The position numbers and the translations under genes are program-made. Positions 1-24,802 of a stretch of DNA of 64,000 nucleotides are shown one piece after another. Under the pieces are notes generated by a model. The model worked only from the letters and a program-made list of their open reading frames with translations, had not been told where the DNA came from and did not search any database. The DNA lies in NCBI GenBank assembly GCA_022821985.1, contig JAJECP010000035.1, positions 248,001 through 312,000 of the forward strand, written 5' to 3'. Every line of letters begins with the position of its first letter. Positions within the stretch are counted from its first letter, which is position 1. This stretch comes from Acidimicrobiia bacterium. GTDB taxonomy: Bacteria > Actinomycetota > Acidimicrobiia > Acidimicrobiales > Poriferisodalaceae.

Positions 1-561
1 GATCTCCTGAACGGTCATGCTGCTGCCGTTCTTGGGCTTGTCGTCATCGTCGCCGGCGTTCTGGTTCCCCTGTTGGTGCGGCCGACAGTTCGCCGGCCGC
101 GGGCTGACCGCGCAACGCTCTCGCTCTGCCTTCTCCCTGGCTTCGCGCTCGGCCTTCTCCCGGGCCTCTCGCTCTCTGGTCTCGCGTTCGGCCTTCTCTC
201 TGGCCTCCCGCTCAGCTTGCTCTCTGGCTGCCTTCTCCCTGGCCTCTCGCTCGGCTCGCTGTCTGGCTTCGCGTTCGGCTGCGGCTTGCTGGCGCTGACG
301 CTCGGCTTCGGCTCGCTGTTCCGGCGTTGCTGACTGGCCGCCGTTGCGCGGCCCGTCGCTGTCGCCGTTGCGGCCCGAAGGCGTGTTGTCGGAGTGAGTG
401 TGGCTCACGCTTTCGTTCCAGCATTGCTGGCCTGCGAATGGGTCATAGGCGCACAGGCGCACCGTTTGAGTGTGCGCCCCAGCGGGCGACACAGCGACGA
501 TGGCGAGCGTGGAAGCGGCCACAAGCAGCGCCATGAGCGCTGCGGGGGTTCGTTTGGTCAT
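1..561 (-). CDS. Secreted protein with long charged helical repeat (partial, 3' end outside window)
   Basis: An open frame runs from ATG at 561 to the left edge (187 codons, no stop). Residues 1 to about 28 form a signal peptide (MTKRT start, hydrophobic core, cleavage near PAGA). Next comes a motif block AHTQTVRLCAYDPF / QQCWNESVSHTH. Residues about 70-143 are almost only Glu, Ala, Arg, Lys and Gln in EAREKAERE-like units and should form a solvent-exposed single alpha helix or coiled coil. A Cys-Pro-Asn-Cys stretch and an acidic DDDDK segment follow. The N-terminal block matches the protein at 19688-21187 closely, so the two are paralogues. GGAG lies 10 bases before the ATG. Export is likely; the function is unknown, and a cell-surface or envelope role is inference. 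Confidence 0.75.
   Translation of the reverse strand, partial: MTKRTPAALMALLVAASTLAIVAVSPAGAHTQTVRLCAYDPFAGQQCWNESVSHTHSDNTPSGRNGDSDGPRNGGQSATPEQRAEAERQRQQAAAEREARQRAEREAREKAAREQAEREAREKAERETREREAREKAEREAREKAERERCAVSPRPANCRPHQQGNQNAGDDDDKPKNGSSMTVQEI
115..300. repeat. Degenerate tandem repeat encoding the EAREKAERE helix
   Basis: The plus strand shows recurring units of about 21-24 bases built from gcttcgcgctcggccttctc variants with 3-base phasing. On the minus strand they encode repeated Arg-Glu-Ala-Arg-Glu-Lys-Ala-Glu blocks of the left-edge secreted protein. The unit number could vary by slippage; that is inference. Confidence 0.7.
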
Positions 562-587: not shown

Positions 588-606
588 GTGGATATGCGTT
601 ATCCAC
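588..606. promoter_or_regulatory. Inverted repeat upstream of left-edge secreted protein
   Basis: Perfect 7-base arms GTGGATA (588-594) and TATCCAC (600-606) are separated by 5 bases, 27-45 bases upstream of the ATG at 561. The position suits an operator or a leader hairpin. No known regulator motif is recognised. Confidence 0.35.
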
Positions 607-680
607 GGCCGCGTCGCCCGATACGGAGGGACCCATGCATCTGTGCCGCCCGCGCGGCCGACGCGGCCGTGAATCGTTCG

Positions 681-14055: not shown

Positions 14056-15294
14056 ATGCCAGACACTGCAGGCATCGCCGCCGCGGCCGGCAACGAAACG
14101 GCCGGAGCCCTCGATGGCATACGCGTGGTCGATCTCACCACCGTGCTCATGGGGCCCATGGCGTGCCGCATGCTGGGAGATCACGGCGCCGATGTGATCA
14201 GGGTGGAATCGCTCGACGGAGACTCCACCCGCAACGGTCTGCCTGCCCGGTCCGCCGGCATGTCCGGCTTCAGCCTCAACATCCAGCGCAACAAGCGCTC
14301 GCTGGCGCTGGACCTCAAGTCCGATGCCGGTCGTGCAGCCATGCAGCGGCTGCTCGCGAGCGCCGACGTGCTGATCACCAACATGCGGGCCGCCGCACTC
14401 GAGCGTCTCGGCCTCGACGCCGAGTCCCTGCGAACTCAGCATCCGCAGCTCATCTGCTGCCGTGCGAACGGCTACGGCAGCGGCGGCCCGTACCGCCACA
14501 AGGCGGCCTACGACGACGCCATCCAAGCTGCGTCTGGCCTGTCGAACCTGATCGGCCGCATCGCAGGCGAACCTGGCTTCGTTCCCTCGGTGATTGCAGA
14601 CAAGGTGACCGGGCTGCACGTGGTCGAGGCCGTGCTCGCGGCCCTGTTCCATCGAGAACGGACCGGCGCAGCCCAGGCCATCGAAGTTCCCATGTTCGAA
14701 ACGATGGTGGCCTTCAACTTGGTGGAGCATTACCGCGGCGCCGTGTTCGAGCCACCCGAGGGGCCGTTCGGTTATGACCGGCTGCTCACGCCGCACCGGC
14801 GGCCCTATCCCACGGCCGACGGCTGGGTGTGCCTGCTGCCCTACAACGACGCGCAGTACCGAGCCTTCTTCGCGTTCGTGGAACAACCCGAGCTGGCCGA
14901 CGATCCGCGCTTTGCCGACCACAACTCGCGGATCGCGCACATTGACGAGCTGTACGCACTGTTCGGGGAGCTCTCGGTGCGCCGCACCACCGACGAGTGG
15001 ATCGCCTACTGCGACACCCACTCGATCCCGGCCGCGAGAGTCATGGACTTGGCAGACCTCGACGCAGATCCTCAGCTCGCCGCCGTGGGCCTCGTGAGCA
15101 TCTCGGAGCACCCCACCGAAGGGGCGTACCGCTATGTAGCCGATCCAGTGGTCTACTCAGCGACGCCCACGCGGCTGCGGCGCCACGCCCCGCTGCTGGG
15201 CCAGCACGCGGTCGAGATCCTCAGCGAGCTGGGCTACAGCGACGACGAGATTGACGCGCTGCACGACCAGGGTGTCATCGTGCTGCCGGATTGA
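14056..15294 (+). CDS. CaiB/BaiF-type (family III) CoA-transferase
   Basis: 412 residues. The family moves CoA between carboxylic acids through an aspartyl-CoA anhydride. Visible marks are the N-terminal GIRVVDLTTVLMGPMACRML, the GADVIRVE strand, the glycine-rich GYGSGGPYRHKAAYDDAIQA carrying the probable catalytic Asp, and the C-terminal GQHAVEILSELGYSDDEI end. The substrate cannot be told from sequence. Its stop directly abuts the stop of the convergent small membrane gene. Confidence 0.9.
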   Translation: MPDTAGIAAAAGNETAGALDGIRVVDLTTVLMGPMACRMLGDHGADVIRVESLDGDSTRNGLPARSAGMSGFSLNIQRNKRSLALDLKSDAGRAAMQRLLASADVLITNMRAAALERLGLDAESLRTQHPQLICCRANGYGSGGPYRHKAAYDDAIQAASGLSNLIGRIAGEPGFVPSVIADKVTGLHVVEAVLAALFHRERTGAAQAIEVPMFETMVAFNLVEHYRGAVFEPPEGPFGYDRLLTPHRRPYPTADGWVCLLPYNDAQYRAFFAFVEQPELADDPRFADHNSRIAHIDELYALFGELSVRRTTDEWIAYCDTHSIPAARVMDLADLDADPQLAAVGLVSISEHPTEGAYRYVADPVVYSATPTRLRRHAPLLGQHAVEILSELGYSDDEIDALHDQGVIVLPD

Positions 15295-18599: not shown

Positions 18600-19532
18600 T
18601 CATGGTGTGGGGCGGTCGGGTCGGAGTCGTGAGACGGCGCTGTGATGTGCGAGTTCGGATTTGGCGTAGCGGTGAACCATGGTGGGGCTGGTCCAGCGGC
18701 CGGCGAGCATGGCTTCGGGCATTTGGGCGCCGGCTCGGATGAGGGACTGGGCCGATCCGATGCGCAGGGAGTGGCCTGAGGCGCCGTCGATGCCGATCTG
18801 GGCTGCGGCGGCGGTGATGATGGCGCGGATGGCGCGCACTGACAGCCGCTCGTCGGTGACGCGGTTGCCTTTGCGGACGCGTCGGAACAGCGGCCCGCCG
18901 TCGATGGCGGCTGCGGTGAGCCAAGCGTCGATGCGCATGATGGCTGCGCGGCGCAAGAACAGCGACGCGCCGTCGCCGTTCTGGTCGGTCTTGGATCGAC
19001 GGACGTGAACATGGCCGGTTCCGTCGTCGGCTCGGCCGATGTCGGCCGCGTCGAGCGCTGCGGTCTCGCCGACGCGCAGCAGAGCGTCGCTCATCACCGC
19101 GATGACGGCTGCATCGCGCAGTCCGATGGCGTCGCCGCGCGCGGCGGCTGTGTCGGCTGCGGCGTCGGCCGCGGCCCAGTCGACCGCCGCGACTTGACGT
19201 GCTGGCGGGGCCGCTCTGCGGTGGGTGCGCAGCGCGATCTCGCATAAGGGTCCGACGGGGTCGGGCTCTCCGAGACGGCGGGCGGCGGTTCGCACTGCTG
19301 CGACGGTCAGCGACAGCGTCGACGGCGACTGTCCTTGGGCTGCCATACCGGAAAGCACCCTGCTGAGCGCAGAGTCGGTGAGCAGCTCGCTGCCGAGCAC
19401 GGCTTGCACCGCGCGCAGCCGCCCGGTGTAAGCGCGTCGCGTCGCGGGGGCGAAGTCCGCTGACGCGGCGCTGAACGCGTCGGCGGTGATGCGGCAGGCC
19501 TGATGGGAGTGCTGTGACGGCTGCGGCGCCAT
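18600..19532 (-). CDS. Tyrosine recombinase/integrase
   Basis: 310 residues. The N-terminal SAM-like DNA-binding domain (about 20-110) is followed by a catalytic domain with Arg153 (LLRVGE), Lys181 (RRSKTDQNG), His254 and Arg257 (GHSLRIG), Trp280 in place of the second His, and nucleophile Tyr289 (MVHRYAKSEL). All needed residues are present, so it should be active. Such orphan integrases move small elements or act on local sites. No tRNA gene, excisionase or clear attachment repeat is seen nearby. The neighbour across the divergent intergenic region is a His/Cys-rich secreted protein. Confidence 0.9.
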   Translation of the reverse strand: MAPQPSQHSHQACRITADAFSAASADFAPATRRAYTGRLRAVQAVLGSELLTDSALSRVLSGMAAQGQSPSTLSLTVAAVRTAARRLGEPDPVGPLCEIALRTHRRAAPPARQVAAVDWAAADAAADTAAARGDAIGLRDAAVIAVMSDALLRVGETAALDAADIGRADDGTGHVHVRRSKTDQNGDGASLFLRRAAIMRIDAWLTAAAIDGGPLFRRVRKGNRVTDERLSVRAIRAIITAAAAQIGIDGASGHSLRIGSAQSLIRAGAQMPEAMLAGRWTSPTMVHRYAKSELAHHSAVSRLRPDRPTP

Positions 19533-19585
19533 AGGACACCGAATCTACCGCCGCTAATGCCACTAGCCGGACAGATTCGAGCGGA

Positions 19586-19636
19586 GCCGGCCGCGCAGGC
19601 GGCAACAAATCGCATGGATTCCCCCGCGCGGCCGGC
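19586..19636. repeat. 11-base perfect inverted repeat with 29-base spacer
   Basis: Arms GCCGGCCGCGC (19586-19596) and GCGCGGCCGGC (19626-19636) lie between the divergent integrase and secreted-protein starts. It may be a recombinase site, a leader hairpin or a cis-regulatory element. The spacer is longer than the 6-8 bases typical of a tyrosine recombinase core site. Confidence 0.4.
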
Positions 19637-19687
19637 ACCGCTCTTGGCCCCTTACGCGGCCTGCCACGCCAAGGAGACACACGCCCA

Positions 19688-21187
19688 ATGACCAAGCGAA
19701 CCCTCGCCGCGCTCGTCGCGCTGCTCGCGTTCATGGCCGTGCTCGTCGCGGTTCCGCTCGCCACCAGCGAGACAGCCGAGGCGCACACCAAGACTGTCAA
19801 GCGCTGCTCCTATGACCCGTTCACGAACGTTCAGCAGTGCTGGACCGAGACGGTCGCCCACACGCACCGGGTGATTCCCGACAACCCGCCGCCGGACACG
19901 TCGCCCACCACCACGACAGCGCCGCCGCCGAAGTCATGCCCGCCCGGCCAGCACTCCAACGGCGGCGCAGGCAAGAACTGCCACAGCCACAGCTTCACAC
20001 CGCCATGCGGAACCGGAACATGGTCTCCCGGCCACGGCCACACGCCCATTCAGAAACCGCCCTGCCCCACCACCCCGCCGATCACCACGACCACGACCGA
20101 GCCTCCCAAGTGCCCTGTCGGGCAGGTCGGCACGCCGCCCAACTGTCAGCCGGAGAAATGCCCCGCAGGCCAGACCGGCACTCCGCCGAACTGCCAGACC
20201 CCGCCGCCTCCGCAGTGCTCGGCGGGCGAACATCGCCACGGCAACGGCGGCTGCGACCCCGACCACGAGCCGCCGTGCGGGGTAGGCAAATGGAACCCCG
20301 GCCACGGCCACGCGCTCGTCGAACGGCCGGCGTGCACCTATGTCGATGCGAGCCACGCAACAGGGCCGATCACCTACTGCGGAACCCAATCGCACACGCA
20401 CAAGACGCGCCACTTCCACTACGGCGGCAACGGCTGCCACCCCACAGCGGACGCGCACCCCACGGGCACAACCAGCACCGACCCTTGCGAGTCGTGGGTC
20501 AGCAGCACAAGCGCCGCGCTCAAAACGGCCAACTCGGACGGCAGCTACAACATCCCCAACGCGCCGACCGGGTGCAAGACCTCGACGCGCCAGATGCTCG
20601 GCAGGCTGAGAGTCAGCGGCGTCAACATCACAAAGGCCATCACGGAGCACGTCGAGAAAGCGCTGAACCAACAATGGGAGGCGATAGAAGCCAACCACGA
20701 ACGAGACGAGCTTCTCGCGGGCTATATCGAGGATGGCTGGAACGCCACGCCGAAGCCCATACAAGACACCATCAAGGCGGGAGTGTGCATCGGCCTGGTC
20801 GCCACCGTCGTGGTGGCTGTCATCAAGAGCAAAGGCAAGATCGCCAAGGCTGGCCCGTTCGCCGAGAAAGCGTACGTAGTGGCGGATGCGGCCGGGTGCA
20901 CGGCTTTGGTCTTGATTCTGAACGCCATCACGGTGACCGAAGTGCCCGATGACGACAGCGGCGACTCGGGCGATGGCCATCCCGGCGGCACCGACGACGA
21001 CAGCGGCGATGACGGCTCGAGCACCGACAGCGACGATGGCGGCAGTTCCGAAGAGGACGCGGACCCTGAGCCGACGCCGGGTATCTGCGACCGCAACTCG
21101 GCTCCGACGAACCCCTACAAGATCGGCCCCAGCAACACGACGCCCCAGCAGTGGGCCGACTGGTACGCATGGTTCGACTGCCCCTAA
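19688..21187 (+). CDS. His/Cys-rich secreted protein with HGH repeats
   Basis: 499 residues. Signal peptide 1 to about 32, then the block AHTKTVKRCSYDPF / QQCWTETVAHTH shared with the left-edge protein. Residues 83-250 are Cys-, His- and Pro-rich: PPCGTGTWSPGHGH near 105-118 recurs as PPCGVGKWNPGHGH near 196-209, and CPVGQVGTPPNCQ recurs as CPAGQTGTPPNCQ. A middle alpha-helical region precedes two hydrophobic segments (about 365-379 and 395-415), then a Ser/Asp-rich acidic linker and a short Cys-containing end. Disulfide or metal binding outside the membrane is inference. AAGGAG lies 11 bases before the ATG. Function unknown. Confidence 0.8.
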   Translation: MTKRTLAALVALLAFMAVLVAVPLATSETAEAHTKTVKRCSYDPFTNVQQCWTETVAHTHRVIPDNPPPDTSPTTTTAPPPKSCPPGQHSNGGAGKNCHSHSFTPPCGTGTWSPGHGHTPIQKPPCPTTPPITTTTTEPPKCPVGQVGTPPNCQPEKCPAGQTGTPPNCQTPPPPQCSAGEHRHGNGGCDPDHEPPCGVGKWNPGHGHALVERPACTYVDASHATGPITYCGTQSHTHKTRHFHYGGNGCHPTADAHPTGTTSTDPCESWVSSTSAALKTANSDGSYNIPNAPTGCKTSTRQMLGRLRVSGVNITKAITEHVEKALNQQWEAIEANHERDELLAGYIEDGWNATPKPIQDTIKAGVCIGLVATVVVAVIKSKGKIAKAGPFAEKAYVVADAAGCTALVLILNAITVTEVPDDDSGDSGDGHPGGTDDDSGDDGSSTDSDDGGSSEEDADPEPTPGICDRNSAPTNPYKIGPSNTTPQQWADWYAWFDCP

Positions 21188-21213
21188 CCGACACAGCGAC
21201 AGCGCGAACGACG

Positions 21214-21714
21214 ATGAACGCCCCGAACTACCCTGACCCCATGAGCGCCGACGACGAAGCATCAGCCGAGCCTCAACCGCAGAAATCGTCGCGGCGCTAT
21301 CTGTTTTGGTATCTGCCGACGTTATTCGTGGTGTTCACCATCGTGAACTACGCGCTTCCCTCCGACTACTTGGCCGCAGCGTTTTGGCTGAGCGTGCTGG
21401 GCCTGATCGTGCTGGGGCACCTTGCCATATTGGTGTATCGCCGCAAAAGGTCACGCCGCGAGACGTCGGCGGCTGTTGGGGTTTTGTCGAACAGCGACGC
21501 CCCAGCGCCGCGGATGTCGGAGTTGAGCGACCTGCTTAGGTACCTGCCGGTGATGGTCCTGGTTCTGTGGGCGGTAGCCGTCAGCTTTTGGATTTCGCCC
21601 GGCAGTGAAGCGATGTTTTGGCTGGGCGCTCCAGTTCTTCTAGCGATGCTCGGGCTCTGCGTGAACGTGATTAGTCGGAGAAATACCAACCACATCGATC
21701 AGCCGCAAGGCTGA
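21214..21714 (+). CDS. Four-helix membrane protein, unknown function
   Basis: 166 residues from ATG 21214; ATG 21241 is also possible, and neither has a strong ribosome site. Four transmembrane helices occur as two pairs separated by a basic loop (YRRKRSRRET) and a Ser/Ala/Pro linker, so the protein may be an internal duplication of a two-helix unit. It follows the His/Cys-rich secreted protein by 26 bases and is probably co-transcribed. Confidence 0.6.
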   Translation: MNAPNYPDPMSADDEASAEPQPQKSSRRYLFWYLPTLFVVFTIVNYALPSDYLAAAFWLSVLGLIVLGHLAILVYRRKRSRRETSAAVGVLSNSDAPAPRMSELSDLLRYLPVMVLVLWAVAVSFWISPGSEAMFWLGAPVLLAMLGLCVNVISRRNTNHIDQPQG

Positions 21715-22089
21715 GGCGGCTGTTGGGTTTCGCCTGGCTGACATTCGGCGCCGCTCGATGGCGTCGCCGGGGCAGGACTGTCAGACGTTCACTTGTCGAG
21801 AGATGTGCTCAGGCGGCCTGACGCGGGCGCAGGCTGGCGTCGCCCACCAGTGCGAAGCTTCGTTACCTTGACGCCGAATTTTTAACTCTGACAAGTGGCA
21901 TTGTCAGAATCATATAGCCCCGGATACGCGTTCGCAAGCGGCAGCGCTTCGCCGTAATGACAATCGGGCAGCCGCCACGCGACTCCTCGCCGGGCGAGCT
22001 GCCGATCGATGCACATCTGCGGCTCACGAGCGACTCGCTGGCGGCTGCGGCGACCGCTTGCTTCAGGACGCGTCGGGAGGCCGCTGCAG
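21715..22089. other. 375-base intergenic region between convergent genes
   Basis: No frame here looks coding. It contains a perfect palindrome CGAAGCTTCG (21853-21862), the inverted repeat at 21888-21907, and an AT-rich patch (aatttttaac, aatcatatag) unusual for this window. Confidence 0.55.
21888..21907. terminator. Inverted repeat CTGACAA...TTGTCAG
   Basis: Perfect 7-base arms with a 6-base spacer in AT-rich surroundings, between a plus-strand gene ending at 21714 and mscS ending at 22090. There is no clean T run, so a terminator, an operator or a chance repeat are all possible. Confidence 0.3.
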
Positions 22090-23473: not shown

Positions 23474-24802
23474 ATGAATGACGCTGAGTCCCTCGCCACC
23501 AACGGTCCACCGTCTGATCGGCTGACCATGCCCGGCTATCGGCCGCGGGTCGTCGAGACGCAGATTGCCGAAGCGCTGGCGCGGGTGGGCGCCGTGCTCA
23601 TCGACGGGGCGCGAGCATGCGGCAAGACGTGGACCGCCCGCCACTTTGCGCGCAGCGAAGCCCGTATCGACGACCCGGCGTCACAGCTGCTTATCGAGAC
23701 TGCGCCCGAGTCGCTGCTGGCGGGCGCCTCGCCTCGCCTGCTTGACGAATGGCAGATGGCGCCGTCGCTGTGGAACCGGGTGCGCCGGGCCTGCGACGAC
23801 CGCAGCCAGCCCGGCCAGTTCATCCTGACAGGATCGGCATCGCCGAGCGACGAGATCACCCGCCACTCGGGCATGGGTCGCATTGCCCGCATCCGCATGC
23901 GCCCGATGTCGCTGTACGAATCGGGACTCTCCGACGGCAGCGCATCGCTGCGGTCGATGTTCGACGGCGACGCTGCTGCAGCGGTGCCCCGAGATGATGT
24001 CTCGCTCGTCGATGTCGTTGAAGCCATCTGCCTCGGAGGCTGGCCCGCCAACGTGGACGACAGCGCTGATGCCCCAGGCGAAGCATCTGGCGCCAGCGGC
24101 GCAATCGGCGAGTACATCAACGAGGCAGCGCGGGTGGAGGTCGCCGAAGCTGTCGGCGTGCGGCATCAGCCCGAGGCGCTGCTGCGACTGATGCGTTCGG
24201 TGGCTCGCAATGTGGCAACCGAAGCGAGGCTCACCGGCTTGGCCGCAGACGCTGGCGGCGACTCGGCACTGGCGAGCGCCACGGTGCGCTCGTACCTGGC
24301 TGCCTTGGAGCGCATCTTCGTCGTCGAGCGGCAGCCGGCATGGTCCGTGGAACTGCGCTCCCGGGCCTCGTTGCGCAAATCGCCCAAACTGCACTTCGTC
24401 GATCCTTCGCTGGCGGCATCGTTGCTGCGGGCCACGCCGACGCGCCTCATGGCCGATACGGCTGCGCTGGGATCGCTGTTCGAGTCGCTGGTAGTGCGAG
24501 ACCTGCGGATACTGAGCCAGGGCATCGGTGCCGACGTGTACCACTACCGCGACAACGTCGGCCTCGAAGCAGATGCGGTGATCGAACGGCGCGACGGAGC
24601 ATGGATCGGTATGCAGGCAAAGTTGAGCCCGGTCCGCTCTGCGGTGGATGCGGCGGCTGCATCGCTGCTTCGTCTGCGAGACAAGGTGGCTCGCCGACGC
24701 GACGCCGACCTGGCAGCACTGCTGGTGGTGACCTCGACCGGCGCGGCCTACCGCCGCACCGACGGCGTCATCGTCACGCCCGTGACCTCGCTCGGCCCCT
24801 GA
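23474..24802 (+). CDS. AAA ATPase with DUF4143 domain
   Basis: 442 residues; Met19 (MPGYRPRVVE) is a plausible alternative start because the family usually begins there. Walker A GARACGKTWT (45-54), Walker B RLLDEWQ (88-94), sensor-like FILTGSAS, then a C-terminal DUF4143 region with an ExD...QxK nuclease-fold signature (GLEADAVIERR...WIGMQAKLS). This widespread family (AAA_14 plus DUF4143) has no agreed function; links to toxin-antitoxin or mobile DNA have been proposed. The base composition matches its neighbours. Confidence 0.85.
   Translation: MNDAESLATNGPPSDRLTMPGYRPRVVETQIAEALARVGAVLIDGARACGKTWTARHFARSEARIDDPASQLLIETAPESLLAGASPRLLDEWQMAPSLWNRVRRACDDRSQPGQFILTGSASPSDEITRHSGMGRIARIRMRPMSLYESGLSDGSASLRSMFDGDAAAAVPRDDVSLVDVVEAICLGGWPANVDDSADAPGEASGASGAIGEYINEAARVEVAEAVGVRHQPEALLRLMRSVARNVATEARLTGLAADAGGDSALASATVRSYLAALERIFVVERQPAWSVELRSRASLRKSPKLHFVDPSLAASLLRATPTRLMADTAALGSLFESLVVRDLRILSQGIGADVYHYRDNVGLEADAVIERRDGAWIGMQAKLSPVRSAVDAAAASLLRLRDKVARRRDADLAALLVVTSTGAAYRRTDGVIVTPVTSLGP

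Follow-up and report, generated by a model that had tools for sequence, protein, structure and literature searches.

What is the function of a secreted protein crowded with histidine and cysteine repeats? The question is raised by a gene for 499 amino acids (19688..21187, forward strand) in the window, the whole 64,000-nucleotide stretch analysed here, which belongs to a 3.3 Mb genome of the Acidimicrobiia. The initial annotation described a secreted, Cys-rich protein of no known family with two motifs that each occur twice, many histidine pairs, and two hydrophobic helices with an acidic linker behind the repeats, and it considered metal chelation. The descriptive part of this account holds. 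PPCGxGxWxPGHGH is found at residues 105 and 195 and CPxGQxGTPPNCQ at residues 142 and 158, and neither long motif appeared when residues 83-250 were shuffled 20,000 times at constant composition. This segment contains 14 Cys and 15 His, out of 22 and 23 in the protein, and HxH, which is present seven times in all, occurs in it six times, against a mean of 1.2 and a maximum of 6 in 20,000 shuffles. Searched as a whole, the protein matched no PDB sequence, and with an E limit of 1 neither Pfam nor NCBIfam gave a match. The reading frame is coding because, in comparison with the ortholog L080, 19, 15 and 47 changes fall on codon positions 1, 2 and 3 over 443 codons.

From the N-terminus, the protein consists of a signal peptide recognised by eye (residues 1-32, ending in A-E-A and followed by His33; 19688..19783, immediately before 19784), a constant N-domain delimited by alignment A2 and the family census (residues 33-60, HTKTVKRCSYDPFTNVQQCWTETVAHTH; 19784..19871), exchangeable Cys/His modules recognised from the sequence and from paralogs (residues 84-264; 19937..20479), a variable C-terminal core delimited by alignment A3, which is the proposed toxin domain (residues 265-420; 20480..20947), an acidic Asp/Ser/Gly linker (residues 421-465; 20948..21082) and a C-terminal tail of a type also found behind another core, that of L081 (residues 466-499; 21083..21184), all on the forward strand. 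The exchangeable part is made up of two PGHGH modules, two GTPPNC units and one HTHKTRHFH module, and the core contains four Cys, predicted helices and the two hydrophobic segments, at about residues 361-379 and 397-415.

An N-terminal profile identified 36 gene starts in 10 of the 11 genomes of the genus (36 of 50 profile rows were kept, the others being nine occurrences of a related motif inside large proteins and five weak or second matches); in 243 other genomes of the order, none of the best candidates, at most 22 per genome, reached E 1e-6. With an E limit of 1e-5, the core profile gave nothing beyond the genus in 198 genomes, five of them in the genus, and the viral contigs searched held no relative. 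As far as these searches reach, the gene belongs to a multigene family confined to one Acidimicrobiia genus. Another search gave a single match beyond the genus (G030, E 5.7e-4), which by eye resembled a solute-binding protein carrying an acidic stretch and was discarded. The copy numbers of the family are rough because contig ends cut many members, or the leaders described below, in G001, G002, G003, G005, G007 and G008; such breaks are as expected if near-identical copies disrupt the assembly. A second member leaves the window at its left end, with its N-terminal part at 1..561 on the reverse strand (G000:C31:248364-248561, E 4.6e-30) and its core end and partner gene beyond the window.

The named relatives are Acidimicrobiia genomes from metagenomes (isolates jk18x..., p16x..., SB0675_bin_4 and APA_bin_4). 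Since excerpts of a paper on Ircinia sponges use the genome name form jk18x7bins.61 (PMC9531527), the relatives with jk18x-type names very probably come from sponges, and we infer the same for the window's own species. Sponge symbionts live densely packed, and little was found on protein weapons among them: the open-licence papers listed, judged by title and opening of the abstract, described no polymorphic toxin system in a sponge symbiont, and the one that joins polymorphic toxins with Acidimicrobiia concerns another superfamily.

The members share one order, namely signal peptide, small N-domain, exchangeable spacers, diverged core, acidic linker and short tail. Ala-His is invariant in all nine rows of alignment A2, with A-x-A in seven, so that the mature protein would begin with histidine if cleaved at the site predicted by eye. 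The N-domain is short and has two Cys (RC.YDPF..QCW..HTH), and the spacers that separate it from the core differ in make-up, being either Cys/His-rich or coiled-coil. When modules were counted in 30 of the 36 members, the PGHGH type was present in 6 of the 20 complete ones and the GT[PYF]P[ND]C unit in all 20; the repeats seen in the window protein differ or are absent among the other members, and the His/Cys repeats that first drew attention to the gene are thus an optional spacer module of a larger arrangement. The cores, of 138-166 residues, have strongly diverged, 12 of the other 13 in alignment A3 being 20-34% identical to that of the window, with Cys3, Cys32, Trp87 and Cys140 invariant among the 14 and C103 conserved in at least 90% of rows. 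The last two core cysteines sit within the two hydrophobic segments. The tails are short and of several unlike types.

Two further observations concern the N-terminal part. Nine long open frames, with lengths of 748-2193 aa, also contain an N-domain motif of the C.FDPFAG.QCWNE type (G000:C18:88819, G008:C62:147535, G004:C25:7800, G004:C26:7142, two in G002:C72, and one each in G005:C26, G007:C10 and G001:C232), and those inspected resemble large secreted proteins. On the minus strand of L085, at about 14532-15258, a member seems to have lost its core, its N-terminus and coiled-coil being followed by a linker and tail in another frame and by a partner that resembles that of L076.

Database searches provided few clues to the core. 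When 14 cores were compared with Pfam, just sub-significant matches were obtained, for instance to RTX N-terminal (0.0027) and Holin-X (0.005), in one core each; a match to Colicin S4 at E 0.84 is noise, and the core profile matched solved structures only at E 0.09 or worse. AlphaFold2 models from two core alignments were poor (mean pLDDT 53.1 and 51.5), so that a colicin-type pore-former fold, helices around a hydrophobic hairpin, is at most a candidate; the hairpin itself is present in the sequence. As to EF-hand or SHOCT domains in the tail, SHOCT matched two relatives' tails below its cut-off (E 0.07 and 0.09) and the window tail not at all. Altogether, neither the cores nor the four downstream partners scanned against Pfam and NCBIfam convincingly matched any toxin or immunity domain described so far, the best Pfam match of the partners being a LapA domain at 0.001, below its cut-off. 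Such a match is not required of polymorphic toxins, among which new domains are common.

An indication of function comes from the gene that follows. At 21214..21714 on the forward strand lies a gene for a small membrane protein of 166 aa with four hydrophobic segments, the proposed immunity protein, which may represent two partner units in tandem. Across the family, partner genes encode one to four hydrophobic segments and mostly lie 5-60 bases downstream of the family gene; that a membrane protein follows is partly true by construction because the partner was chosen as a downstream ORF with a hydrophobic segment. Further partner-like small genes with no core ahead of them occur downstream of the family gene in L078 and L088, an arrangement that recalls loci with spare immunity genes.

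The similarity of cores was compared with that of partners in 26 cassettes, corresponding to 25 of 46 candidate rows and L068 (the 21 rows left out comprised 10 chance ORFs, 4 orthologs or duplicates and 7 without a core). The two co-vary, with a Mantel r of 0.542 (p=2e-4 with 5,000 permutations and p=5e-5 with 20,000), which rises to 0.715 without one truncated cassette and to 0.714 when also made partial on the tail. The tail hardly tracks the partner despite lying between it and the core (r 0.113, p=0.036; 0.047, p=0.20 without the one truncated cassette), and the N-terminus does not (r 0.061, p=0.23, 19 cassettes). By ranks the association loses much of its strength (r 0.185 to 0.231, p 0.017 to 0.005), and the signal therefore rests on a few clearly similar pairs, one of which sits at orthologous loci (L082 and L088). 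With the truncated cassette left out, eight core pairs score at least 0.45, and six of them have partner scores of 0.25-0.63; the other two, L082-L090 and L084-L132, have partners at 0.11 and 0.10, close to the mean of 0.08 for the other pairs. Tails are unlike (0.06 to 0.20) in five of the eight, of which four have similar partners (0.25 to 0.63), the exception being L082-L090; the remaining three, including L084-L132, have more similar tails. A departure in the opposite direction is the second truncated cassette of L085, which has a partner of the L131 type (0.80) behind a core scoring 0.09.

The same pattern is visible in the DNA, at E up to 1e-8. Comparison of the window with G000:C40, a headless cassette from another place in this genome, shows matches only in the core (20737-20963, 77%) and the partner (21207-21460, 71%). 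Between G007:C126 and G003:C98, the core (83%), the partner (77%) and one 67-base piece downstream match and the intervening tail does not; likewise, between the left member of G000:C31 and G007:C16, the core (81%) and the partner (77%) match around an unmatched tail, with extra matching pieces downstream and in the repeats. Seven truncated cassettes (L079, L084, L085, L088, L090, L092 and L060) keep a partner of their own.

The family thus presents a constant N-terminal part with an export signal (by eye), a variable C-terminal domain exchanged among members, a downstream partner that co-varies with it, if more weakly by ranks and with two of the eight similar pairs unlike, and seven standalone C-terminal cassettes with partner genes. 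We consider that the arrangement is probably a polymorphic toxin-immunity system that bacteria use against one another, with a putative activity that would probably be directed at membranes, and that the larger system is most likely a new, genus-limited form of such systems with an unclassified leader RNA. The co-variation and the truncated cassettes with partners place this reading first, since the combination is known from MafB/MafI and others. The signal peptide would export the protein, and the constant N-domain with its Cys/His or coiled-coil spacers may form a swappable stalk, or a part for targeting, that is braced by disulfides. The helices and hydrophobic hairpin of the core might then enter the membrane of a competitor and depolarise it, an action suggested by the hairpin itself and by the membrane-bound partner. 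The downstream membrane protein would in turn shield the producer and its kin from their own core type, as the statistical pairing suggests. Toxins of this kind do not usually have a tail behind their hydrophobic core, which counts against this reading. Dozens of gene pairs, their core and partner domains unclassified, make up a concrete, testable set.

A serious, if somewhat unlikely, alternative is that these are variable surface proteins for life in the sponge, with the hairpin as a membrane anchor, the modules displayed toward the host or matrix, the small membrane protein as a specific partner in assembly or stability, and variation serving the evasion of host or phage. The signal peptide, the variable extracellular modules, the acidic linker and the relatives from sponge metagenomes agree with this possibility, as does a lysine-rich loop between the hydrophobic segments of the window core, which fits an anchor with the loop inside; moreover, a partner that specifically binds the hairpin would likewise produce co-variation of core and partner. 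What speaks for a toxin with its immunity protein instead is that cassettes in which a core or a tail is joined to a partner without an N-terminus are expected of such systems and less of an anchor, and that the membrane part is itself strongly diverged in sequence.

The family can be compared with known systems. The MafB domain DUF1020 (PF06255), searched with Pfam at E up to 1, is absent from the window protein, and the ALF repeats carried by umbrella toxins have no Pfam match in it. The immunity protein of the Staphylococcus aureus toxin TspA, TsaI, is a membrane protein. According to excerpts of Zhang et al. 2012 (PMC3482391), polymorphic toxins include pore formers of one class, Tox-WTIP, that have two membrane-spanning helices, and the systems described there share with the present family a constant N-terminal export part, a variable C-terminus, a downstream partner and standalone cassettes; unlike them, the family has an exchangeable tail behind the variable core and a structured leader, and its N-domain, cores and scanned partners are without a convincing Pfam or NCBIfam match. 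MafB/MafI of Neisseria, in the portion of the source consulted (PMC4287609), resemble the family in their signal peptide, genus-limited N-domain, variable C-terminus, adjacent downstream immunity gene, and startless C-terminal cassettes each followed by a partner gene. They differ in that the MafB studied in that work is an EndoU ribonuclease, whereas here a hydrophobic core is joined by a membrane partner, in another phylum. TspA, by its description in excerpts of PMC7456083, is a membrane-depolarising toxin exported by type VII secretion, and is comparable in that a membrane-depolarising toxin with a membrane immunity protein is proposed here. Finally, the umbrella toxins of Streptomyces are secreted polymorphic toxins of actinomycetes as well, but form multi-protein particles with lectins, as outlined in excerpts of PMC11062931.

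How new types might arise is suggested by the mosaic structure of the loci. In the orthologous locus of G009, both flanks are 94-95% identical to the window and an inner stretch of about 0.2 kb is largely swapped, window positions 19907-20110 being mostly replaced by other Cys units. In the otherwise dissimilar paralogs L076, L087, L089 and L090, the stretch that carries the second PGHGH module and the HTHKTRHFH module keeps 87-93% identity, and in L092 82%. New types would thus be generated by the exchange of core-plus-partner, tail and spacer modules among paralogs and truncated cassettes.

A structured leader with a long stem and a conserved loop (GCGGCANCARNTGCATGGGTYCCTCC type) precedes the window gene at 19575..19653 on the forward strand, where a covariance model built from 21 sequences, this one among them, matches with an E of 4.7e-14 (G000:C31:267575-267653); the leader of the second member is at 596..673 on the reverse strand (G000:C31:248596-248673, E 7.3e-14). 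Within the genus the model has at least 47 places after the removal of nine antisense shadows (from the best 56 rows, with up to 150 candidates scored per genome), and outside it the best match in 14 genomes had an E of 0.22. The leader stands ahead of 35 of the 36 family starts, 26-39 nt away, with the sole exception in G006. Of 12 other places, six are before other ORFs with signal-peptide-like starts, five are at contig ends and one is uncertain. The six, L133-L138 (G000:C1:262, G009:C9:2510, G002:C90:78154, G002:C86:48982, G005:C59:25705 and G001:C302:11319), are other predicted secreted proteins, some apparently followed by a small membrane gene and one showing, by eye, RCC1-like repeats, and may be further members of one regulon.

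The leader looks like a regulatory RNA. In the 21 members, 17 of 20 pairs have changed on both sides, and four of five covariation measures exceeded all 500 shuffles, the fifth being reached once, and all exceeded slid controls, although the structure was drawn from the same 21 sequences and the shuffles leave their relatedness in. On the gene strand, G-U pairs outnumber A-C mispairs by 34 to 13, which favours a function as RNA. A conserved coding frame was ruled out, as the frame differs between members. No Rfam family matched in the window at gathering cut-offs, and in 20 loci Rfam gave three matches, all below threshold, to families of eukaryotes or archaea and none of them at a leader.

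Many of the genes have a ribosome-binding site with which the loop can pair. In 29 of 32 genes (three were dropped for lack of a motif or start), the loop paired with its own initiation region at -16.0 kcal/mol compared with -13.8 when swapped (0 of 20,000 permutations) and -10.0 for shuffled loops, with unbroken runs of at least 10 pairs in several members; the result is weakened by the retention of five genes with a doubtful start codon (L078, L092, L060, L133 and L138). In the window gene the pairing is weak (-7.2 kcal/mol), which makes a regulatory reading less certain for it, and the other recombinase-linked leaders in the test range from -8.5 to -12.0, two of them with doubtful starts. 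The leader would probably keep the set under shared translational control, to judge from its structure and complementarity. A stem-loop that lacks an Rfam match and marks a set of secreted proteins raises a question of its own.

The recombinase in question is encoded divergently upstream of the window gene, at 18600..19532 on the reverse strand. It is a tyrosine recombinase of 310 aa (PF00589, E 1.4e-12) of a genus-limited subfamily, with XerC as its best NCBIfam match at 32 bits against a cut-off of 335. R, K and HxxR are present in all 11 aligned copies and W and Y in all 10 uncut ones; together they form the catalytic set of tyrosine recombinases. Near the end of the partner gene, at 21727..21751 on the forward strand, lies a conserved element with three mismatches to GTTTCGTCGGGCTGACGTTCGGCGC, which is found at 16 places in 7 of the 11 genomes (reversed control 0); in two cases, with surroundings inspected at a subset of loci, truncated cassettes start directly after it. 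After the end element or partner, L078, L083, L084, L081 and L060 have a recurring short frame (SRIEGLLGDP.AGH type) or its DNA.

In integrons and shufflons, a tyrosine recombinase adjoins modular genes. The intact catalytic residues, the end element and the position of 10 of the 14 copies in the genus with 54% identity or more, divergently beside a member, would accord with a similar system, in which the recombinase shuffles cassettes at the leader stem-loop and the end element, the former being a folded recombination site and not an RNA. We regard this as improbable. Of the other four copies, three stand alone and one is at a contig end, and with 36 members most leaders have no neighbouring recombinase, unlike in integrons and shufflons. 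The leader, moreover, also precedes other secreted genes and stands at a near-fixed distance from the start codon, and its preference for G-U over A-C and its pairing with the ribosome-binding site count against a recombination site. The toxin-immunity reading can be extended to an arsenal, specific to the genus, of secreted and disulfide-braced toxins that pierce membranes and are matched by membrane immunity proteins, in which core, tail and spacer diversify independently and are reshuffled with the aid of the divergent recombinase as a dedicated enzyme, and in which a new class of leader RNA, its loop mimicking the anti-Shine-Dalgarno sequence, switches the set on jointly; in this full form the proposal is unlikely.

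That the family serves to bind or scavenge metals, with His pairs and Cys holding Zn, Cu or Ni and the N-terminal histidine possibly binding copper, is most improbable: the abundance of His and Cys, the enrichment of HxH and the invariant Ala-His at the predicted cleavage site are compatible with it, but the PGHGH-type module is missing in 14 of the 20 complete members and so unlikely to reflect a shared function, an even count of Cys is in keeping with disulfides in a protein that is exported, and seven other window proteins scanned had no match to a metal transport or metallochaperone family. The metal reading of the repeats, which the initial annotation had put forward, is weakly supported. 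Further downstream in the window, at 23474-24802 on the forward strand, lies a gene for an ATPase with AAA_14 and DUF4143 domains.
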